The translations under genes were made by a program, and so were the position numbers. The notes under the pieces were generated by a model. The model saw only the letters and a program-made list of their open reading frames with translations, made no database searches and was not told the origin of the DNA. This document shows positions 29 to 1,313 of a stretch of DNA of 57,523 nucleotides, piece after piece. The first letter of the stretch is position 1. Every line of letters begins with the position of its first letter. Source of the DNA: Zetaproteobacteria bacterium CG06_land_8_20_14_3_00_59_53 (GTDB taxonomy: Bacteria; Pseudomonadota; Zetaproteobacteria; Mariprofundales; Mariprofundaceae). The stretch lies in assembly GCA_002779605.1 (NCBI GenBank), contig PEWE01000029.1, positions 1 through 57,523 on the forward strand, written 5' to 3'.

Positions 29-79
29 GTCCAATCTCCTTTCAATTTGGGATTGGACTCTAAATCGTTGTGCTACTCA
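1..79 (-). mobile_element. Left-edge IS3-like insertion sequence, partial
   Basis: Read on the reverse strand, the IS terminus may start near position 79 with TGAGTAGCACAACGATTT. It begins with TG, as IS3-family inverted repeats do, and resembles the IS150 type of end. It would put about 50 bases between the IS end and the transposase start, the usual spacing in this family. The other end and the direct repeats are outside the window, so the boundary is a guess. Confidence 0.35.
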
Positions 80-278
80 AATTGGGGGTGACGTCGGGGG
101 CGATGAAGAAAATGATTATGGGGCTGTCATTTCCCTGCTGGCGTGGCTGGTGAACAATCGAGATCAGGCCTTGAATGGCGGATTGCGTGAAGGGATGTAA
201 TGTTTCGCGAATTTGGTTCCCCTTCCTGATCAATCTGACCCACCAGAGGGTAACGCAAAGCCGCATGGCCTGAAGCAC
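80..278. other. Intergenic stretch between IS-like sequence and abi gene
   Basis: I see no convincing gene here. A 72-codon open frame on the reverse strand (60-278) has no ribosome site, no recognisable family and an atypical composition. No terminator with a clear T-run follows the abi stop codon at 279. Confidence 0.4.
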
Positions 279-1226
279 TCAGGAATGTTCGCCATTCTCA
301 CTCCGGGGATGCCAGAAAGGGTCTTGCTGCCAGCTTTCGGGGAACCCCATCTGCGCTTGCGGCACATCGGCATGCTCTTCGAGCAGGGCAAGCAGGCGGT
401 CCTTCCAGCTTGAGTGCGGATTGATGCGCAGCATCATGCACTGAACCATACAGAGATAGGTGTAGAGCTTCTGGCGAGTGCCCACTTCATGCCGCACCCA
501 CGCGATGCGCGGATTGCGCGGAACATCGGGCCGGTAAATCAGTTTGCGATTCCACATTCGCCCATGGTGAGCGCAGATATTGCGCAACAGACATACAGGC
601 TTGAACCATGAGCGAAGCAGCGAGACGGAAATGCCGAAGCGGCTTGCGATACGGTAGCGCGTATCTTTCACAAGTTGCTTGTCGGCATCCATGCTCAGGA
701 AGATGCGCTCCAACTCCCCCACCGTTAGAGCTTCAAGCAACTTCCAACTCGGCGGATCCCCCAGATAGTGCTCCCGATGATGCTTCATGAACTCTTCCTG
801 AGACTCGCGGCAGAGCCTTTCAATCCGCAGCATCTCCGCGCCATAACTGAAACGCCCGCTATCATTGAACAAACTCGCATCCGCATACCAGTTCGGCCCG
901 GCCGCAATGGAAAACTCATAGGCAATGGCAGCACGCAAAGCGACTTCGATCCGCTCAATCGCATCCATCACCAGCAGCCGAAGTTCCCGATCAAAGGTAT
1001 ATAAGCCAAGCATGTCGTCGAAACAGGTGCCGGAGCGATAATGATGGTCGGGCGAATGTTCCACCTGCAAGGTACGGGCATAAATACTCAGGCGATAGTA
1101 GCTGATAAAGCTCAGATAATGCCGCGCGCGCTGCACATCGGGCACAGCCATGCCACGCCTGATATACAGGGCGATTTGTTCATCAATGGTAAGAGGGGGT
1201 TTGTCGTAGGGTTGTAATTCAGGCAT
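279..1226 (-). CDS. Abi family (Abi_2 / AbiD-AbiF type) HEPN protein
   Basis: Predicted abortive-infection protein of 315 residues. The N-terminal block (KPPLTIDEQIALYIRRGM, then YLSFISYYRLSIYAR) and the C-terminal block RNICAHHGRMWN are hallmarks of the Abi_2 family. RNICAH fits the R-x4-H signature of HEPN ribonucleases, so an RNA-cutting toxin active during phage infection is the likely role. I chose the ATG at 1226; the frame continues five codons upstream to a TTG, but those codons overlap the terminator hairpin of the RNA described next. Only GGCGGG, eight bases upstream, could act as a ribosome site, and it is the 3' arm of that hairpin. The gene stands alone beside an IS fragment, as expected of a mobile defence gene. 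Family call is firm; mechanism is inferred. Confidence 0.88.
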   Translation of the reverse strand: MPELQPYDKPPLTIDEQIALYIRRGMAVPDVQRARHYLSFISYYRLSIYARTLQVEHSPDHHYRSGTCFDDMLGLYTFDRELRLLVMDAIERIEVALRAAIAYEFSIAAGPNWYADASLFNDSGRFSYGAEMLRIERLCRESQEEFMKHHREHYLGDPPSWKLLEALTVGELERIFLSMDADKQLVKDTRYRIASRFGISVSLLRSWFKPVCLLRNICAHHGRMWNRKLIYRPDVPRNPRIAWVRHEVGTRQKLYTYLCMVQCMMLRINPHSSWKDRLLALLEEHADVPQAQMGFPESWQQDPFWHPRSENGEHS

Positions 1227-1271
1227 AAAAAAACCCGCCAAAAATGCGCTTCAGTGAGAGGCGAGGCGGGT
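1227..1271 (-). terminator. Rho-independent terminator of the abi-linked RNA
   Basis: Seven-base-pair GC-rich stem with arms at 1265-1271 and 1233-1239, followed on the reverse strand by seven T (1233-1227). It sits immediately before the abi start codon, so it may attenuate abi expression and also hide its ribosome site. Confidence 0.65.
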
Positions 1272-1278
1272 GTTGATG
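1227..1278 (-). ncRNA. Candidate abiF-type small RNA upstream of the Abi gene
   Basis: A short transcript of roughly 50 nucleotides is predicted between a sigma-70-like promoter (1285-1313) and a T-run ending one base before the abi ATG. It contains a 7-bp stem, ACCCGCC (1265-1271 complement) with GGCGGGT (1233-1239 complement). The 25-base loop includes CTCACTGAAGC and a possible inner CGC/GCG helix. A run of seven T follows, so the RNA ends as a rho-independent terminator. Conserved RNAs called the abiF motif are known just upstream of Abi_2 genes; I assign this one from position and architecture, recalled rather than searched. Read-through would produce the abi mRNA. Confidence 0.6.
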
Positions 1279-1284
1279 CCCCGA

Positions 1285-1313
1285 ATCATAAACCCGACCC
1301 CAAAGCAAATCAA
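1285..1313 (-). promoter_or_regulatory. Sigma-70-type promoter for the abi-linked RNA
   Basis: On the reverse strand, -35 TTGATT (1308-1313) and -10 TATGAT (1285-1290) are separated by exactly 17 bases. The -10 box matches five of six consensus positions and the -35 box four of six. Transcription would start near 1278, just before the hairpin. Confidence 0.6.

Follow-up and report, generated by a model that had tools for sequence, protein, structure and literature searches.

A probable AbiF RNA-toxin module in a member of the Mariprofundaceae, with a single hairpin predicted to act as antitoxin RNA, terminator and cover of the ribosome site

In the genome of Zetaproteobacteria bacterium CG06_land_8_20_14_3_00_59_53, a relative of iron-oxidising marine bacteria, a short hairpin and a run of T stand immediately before the start codon of an Abi_2 gene. 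Is this an RNA of the abiF family that controls the gene as an antitoxin, a leader that merely lowers its expression, or an ordinary terminator that happens to lie there? A first-pass annotation made from the letters alone had proposed an AbiF-associated small RNA that forms an attenuator, with inhibition of the protein as an inference. Here we compare the locus with its counterparts in relatives, other bacteria, plasmids and phages. "The window" denotes the whole stretch of DNA analysed (57,523 nucleotides, contig PEWE01000029.1).

Layout of the locus and its toxin gene

The features, all on the minus strand, are as follows.

1308..1313, minus strand: -35 element TTGATT, seen in the sequence; TTG at the equal offset in all seven family loci
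1285..1290, minus strand: -10 element TATGAT, after a 17-base spacer; TATNNT in all seven family loci
1227..1278, minus strand: predicted small RNA of ~50 nt, with the 5' end placed from the -10 element and the 3' end from the T-run; RNA block 97% identical in seven loci
1233..1271, minus strand: abiF-family RNA hairpin (RF03085, 23.6 bits; held-out model, 34.9 bits; covariation)
1271-1265 with 1239-1233, minus strand: outer stem ACCCGCC/GGCGGGT of this hairpin
1263-1261 with 1249-1247, minus strand: inner stem of the hairpin, with a conserved CUCUC loop
1246-1240, minus strand: bulge of the hairpin
1227..1233, minus strand: seven-T run, with the hairpin a likely intrinsic terminator; adjoins the start codon and is conserved in the family loci
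1234..1239, minus strand: GGCGGG, sole ribosome-site candidate, in the 3' arm of the stem; duplex with the anti-SD, -5.8 kcal/mol
279..1226, minus strand: abiF (Abi_2) gene for a HEPN ribonuclease toxin of 315 aa; matches to Pfam Abi_2, PDB 8VZ6 and PADLOC AbiD
567..584, minus strand: HEPN catalytic motif RNICAH (R215, H220), aligned with R210/H215 of PbAbiF

The gene product scores 163.1 bits against Pfam Abi_2 (curated cut-off, 25.6) and 232 bits against PADLOC AbiD, and its residues 1-315 match the solved AbiF structure PDB 8VZ6 (PbAbiF) end to end (E 1.6e-54). Its RNICAH conforms to the catalytic pattern RNxxxH and places R215 and H220 on the two PbAbiF residues whose double change, according to PMC12373285, yields an inactive protein. 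We regard abiF as a probable phage-defence toxin gene. The same genome carries a second Abi_2 gene (L001, G000:C19, 715-1674) that belongs to a separate subgroup, and upstream of the genes of that subgroup, including L006, L014, L018, L103 and L104, no recognisable abiF RNA was found. Elsewhere, AbiF genes are often found within or next to type I restriction-modification genes (L086, L091, L094, L119, L121, L125). In Bacteroides fragilis the Abi protein WP_254695832.1 is annotated from a start that precedes its abiF RNA (L126, 372-500), and the true start is likely the ATG past the RNA, near 493.

The arrangement of the region (1313-1224) agrees with what had been read from the letters at first pass: a promoter-like pair with 17-base spacing, a hairpin and seven T that end at the abi ATG, and a single candidate ribosome site. 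Thirteen bases separate TATGAT from the hairpin, the first T of the run pairs with the A of the outer stem, and zero bases lie between the last T and the ATG (1226-1224). GGCGGG has no competitor between stem and ATG. A TTG at 1241 was considered as an alternative start and discarded; it lies inside the stem, and the similarity of the peptide to its relatives starts after the ATG.

Taken alone, however, the -35/-10 pair is unremarkable and not beyond chance (score 9/12; one found in the region against 0.7 expected), and the predicted fold of -16.1 kcal/mol is only moderately better than that of shuffled sequences (z -2.06). The loop of 25 nt is unusually long for an intrinsic terminator, and for this reason a simple terminator scan of the region did not list the hairpin. 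By itself the sequence is therefore no more than suggestive, and comparison has to carry the case. Near the start of the contig, window positions 72-97 hold GCTACTCAAATTGGGGGTGACGTCGG, which recurs near the ends of contigs C7 and C14 of the same genome and in diverged form on contig C19; it is perhaps the end of a mobile element.

Identity and conservation of the RNA

Rfam family RF03085 matches the hairpin over all 37 model positions with the same two nested stems, and this is the best RF03085 place in the genome; its 23.6 bits fall below the gathering score of 37 bits. That cut-off appears strict: in a survey of 398 genomes of the phylum only three of 20 matches pass it, and the 17 that fall short mostly lie beside Abi_2 genes, as do most of the 20. 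The survey suggests that most such RNAs in this phylum are missed.

We gathered the regions that precede Abi_2 genes in relatives, in other Pseudomonadota, and on plasmids and phages. Outside the RNA-less subgroup of L001, nearly all AbiF genes collected have a similar hairpin before them. From these, 22 abiF RNAs were aligned, with the letters fitted to the two stems by hand, which may introduce bias. All pairs in the alignment are standard ones (100%), nine of the ten pairs show double-sided changes and none is broken; the covariation score is 0.414, whereas shuffled alignments give 0.121 and slid ones no more than 0.091. The first-pass annotation had staked its reading on covariance in homologous loci, and neither the pairing nor the score was reached in any of 500 shuffles. 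RNAalifold recovers the same structure from the alignment.

A covariance model rebuilt without any Mariprofundaceae RNA gives 34.9 bits at 1271-1233 on the minus strand (E 3.2e-7 in the window, 1.3e-5 genome-wide), and nothing else in the genome matches at E <= 10. Across 74 genomes of the family the same model finds eight places, each preceding abiF or its remains. On the plus strand the hairpin scores 16.1 bits; this merely mirrors the palindromic stem, and the reading was set aside. With its two nested stems, its conserved loop, the covariation behind them and an Abi_2/AbiF gene following at once in the same orientation, the RNA agrees with RF03085 in structure and setting. The assignment made at first pass thus holds on the held-out model, and falls short on the Rfam score. 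We conclude from comparative sequence analysis that 1271-1233 encodes an RNA of the abiF family, placed immediately before an intact AbiF gene.

Conservation within the family points the same way. A 49-base pattern from CACCCG to the ATG, allowing up to three mismatches, occurs in seven of the 74 genomes, and the family loci (Zetaproteobacteria) include that of Mariprofundus ferrooxydans PV-1. Across the seven, the RNA, T-run and start codon have a mean pairwise identity of 97% (minimum 94%), which falls to 63% over the 60 coding bases that follow and to 27-32% in the sequence further upstream. The promoter elements are conserved as well (-35, 71%; -10, 79%; spacer, 41%), and TTGNNN-17-TATNNT stands twelve bases ahead of the RNA block in every locus. 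Such conservation within diverged flanks supports the promoter and the RNA as functional units. A scan of genome contigs with the family alignment matched only two close relatives; viral contigs gave zero matches to the exact compact pattern, and a protein scan of them only two distant relatives.

These data bear on the idea that the hairpin is an ordinary terminator standing before abi by chance, unrelated to abiF RNA. The sub-threshold Rfam score would fit such a terminator; the held-out match, unique in the genome, the covariation and the 97% conservation in the family would not, and we reject this explanation as exceedingly improbable.

Compact layout and predicted burial of the ribosome site

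The distance from stem to start codon sets the window's clade apart. It is 6 bases in this clade and 5 in G037, where the stem is a covarying CTCGCC/GGCGAG, whereas at other loci the stem and the assigned start are separated by 10-53 bases (mostly 17-53), usually with a separate ribosome site in between. In a read-through mRNA of the window locus, GGCGGG has a predicted unpaired probability of 0.01; the median of 30 other leaders of the window is 0.39. Shielding of the ribosome site by the stem is a prediction in keeping with this accessibility and with the conserved layout.

A Phyllobacterium plasmid (L085) is compact too: its gene starts with TTG, and a strong site, GGGAGG, lies within the stem. 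It stands apart from the Mariprofundaceae clade in a protein tree whose deep support is weak, and the compact layout therefore probably arose more than once. The ribosome site tends to be buried at loci with a spacer as well (p 0.013, from a background of one genome and loci that are not independent). At five of the loci gathered (L016, L099, L112, L113, L013) a second small hairpin past the abiF RNA hides the site; its stems read GCCCTCC/GGAGGGC, and GCCCTTC/GAAGGGC in L113 is a paired change. Hiding of the site therefore seems to be a wider theme. We found no description of the compact layout in the AbiF papers that were accessible.

Proposed mechanism and fate of the module in the family

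In our model, the promoter at 1313-1285 would make the abiF RNA of ~50 nt, and the hairpin with its seven T would end most transcripts just before the toxin gene, leaving free RNA in excess. This RNA would bind the AbiF HEPN ribonuclease and hold it inactive. In the rare read-through mRNA the same hairpin would cover the ribosome site and so limit toxin translation further. AbiF would be released, and would cleave RNA and halt growth, once the RNA is lost, a phage takes over or some condition favours read-through. We consider it quite likely that the locus is such an AbiF RNA-toxin module, with RNA antitoxin, terminator and ribosome-site cover under one promoter. Termination, inhibition of the protein by the RNA and toxicity are taken over by analogy with studied relatives, while translational shielding is suggested by the layout alone.

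A close parallel is AbiF/RCd22 of Clostridioides difficile (PMC12373285), likewise an abiF-motif RNA before an Abi_2 HEPN toxin under one promoter, with termination before the toxin and some read-through; the window locus is laid out alike, and termination would be expected there too. RCd22 terminates ahead of abiF, and when it is deleted abiF mRNA rises 17-fold; it binds AbiF and neutralises the toxin both in cis and in trans, and changes that break its stems abolish function while those that preserve them do not (PMC12373285). Attenuation and antitoxin action have both been demonstrated in that system, and their transfer to the window locus, as a prediction, is therefore well founded. The two systems also differ. 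In RCd22 there are two abiF motifs and the terminator is separate, whereas at the window locus a single motif is itself the predicted terminator; abiF of C. difficile has a ribosome site of its own and 168 nt from transcription start to ATG, whereas the only site of the window's abiF lies inside the motif. Two cyanobacterial plasmids (L088, L090) carry tandem abiF-type RNAs, ~190 and 25 bases before abiF and with differing inner loops, which recall the two motifs of RCd22.

In the Prevotellaceae pair PbAbiF-AbiFr (8VZ6; Zilberzwige-Tal et al. 2025, as described in PMC12373285 and PMC12737573), the protein is homologous to the AbiF of the window end to end and the ncRNA is a hairpin with a single-stranded bulge. 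According to the review PMC12737573, PbAbiF is inhibited by its ncRNA, and the structure reportedly has one RNA per monomer, with inhibition via bulge nucleotides. Relative to the RF03085 consensus, the bulge of the window RNA reads UUUUU instead of AAAUC, and position 7 is U.

Might the hairpin act solely in cis, as a terminator or attenuator that lowers abiF with no binding to AbiF in trans? The terminator layout and the buried ribosome site would suffice to lower expression. However, the CUCUC loop and the CA past the inner stem are as conserved as the stem itself, across differing stem sequences, which argues against a mere terminator, since that would not need these single-stranded positions. 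The RNAs of relatives, moreover, bind AbiF directly (PMC12373285; PMC12737573). We thus judge a purely cis-acting leader to be unlikely, and a type III-like RNA antitoxin that also ends transcription before its toxin remains our best reading by analogy. As in type III toxin-antitoxin systems, a predicted terminator stands between RNA and toxin under one promoter, on the evidence of sequence and conservation; binding and inhibition of the toxin by the RNA are known from relatives only and would be expected here. In substance the interpretation given at first pass was right and is supported: the locus is an abiF RNA-AbiF module of the sort already published, though compactly laid out.

A single element combines antitoxin hairpin, terminator and ribosome site in this compact form, so AbiF that binds this hairpin on the mRNA made by read-through could directly block its own translation. 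We offer such built-in feedback tentatively, as an idea whose odds are somewhat below even. If true, such a loop would not be open in the same way to loci whose ribosome site is separate and set off by a spacer.

The toxin itself is not always retained in the Mariprofundaceae. At five of the eight family RNA loci (L057, L059, L060, L061, L117) abiF is broken and the RNA kept: the gene is truncated in G058 and G064, only ~14 of its codons remain in G020, and in G038 and G037 in-frame internal deletions fuse 14-19 initial codons to ~50 terminal ones, leaving mini-proteins of ~66-68 aa. The RNA at these loci is intact or nearly so, with one stem change in G038. The window locus could by the same token be a relic, a functional RNA beside a decaying toxin; its frame, however, is intact at 315 aa, the catalytic residues are kept and the protein is 70-74% identical to the two other intact copies, so we hold this to be very improbable and retain the reading of a working module. 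For the family as a whole, with five of eight loci lacking an intact toxin, the module may be under weak selection, and either the toxin losses are recent or an RNA without its toxin gene has a use of its own, such as defence against incoming AbiF. The survey suggests that loss of the toxin often leaves the RNA in place.

CRISPR-Cas13 has been proposed to descend from AbiF and its RNA. With ~50 nt that would serve as antitoxin, terminator and ribosome-site lock together, this locus would be a tiny test case for the way in which control of a HEPN nuclease by RNA arose.
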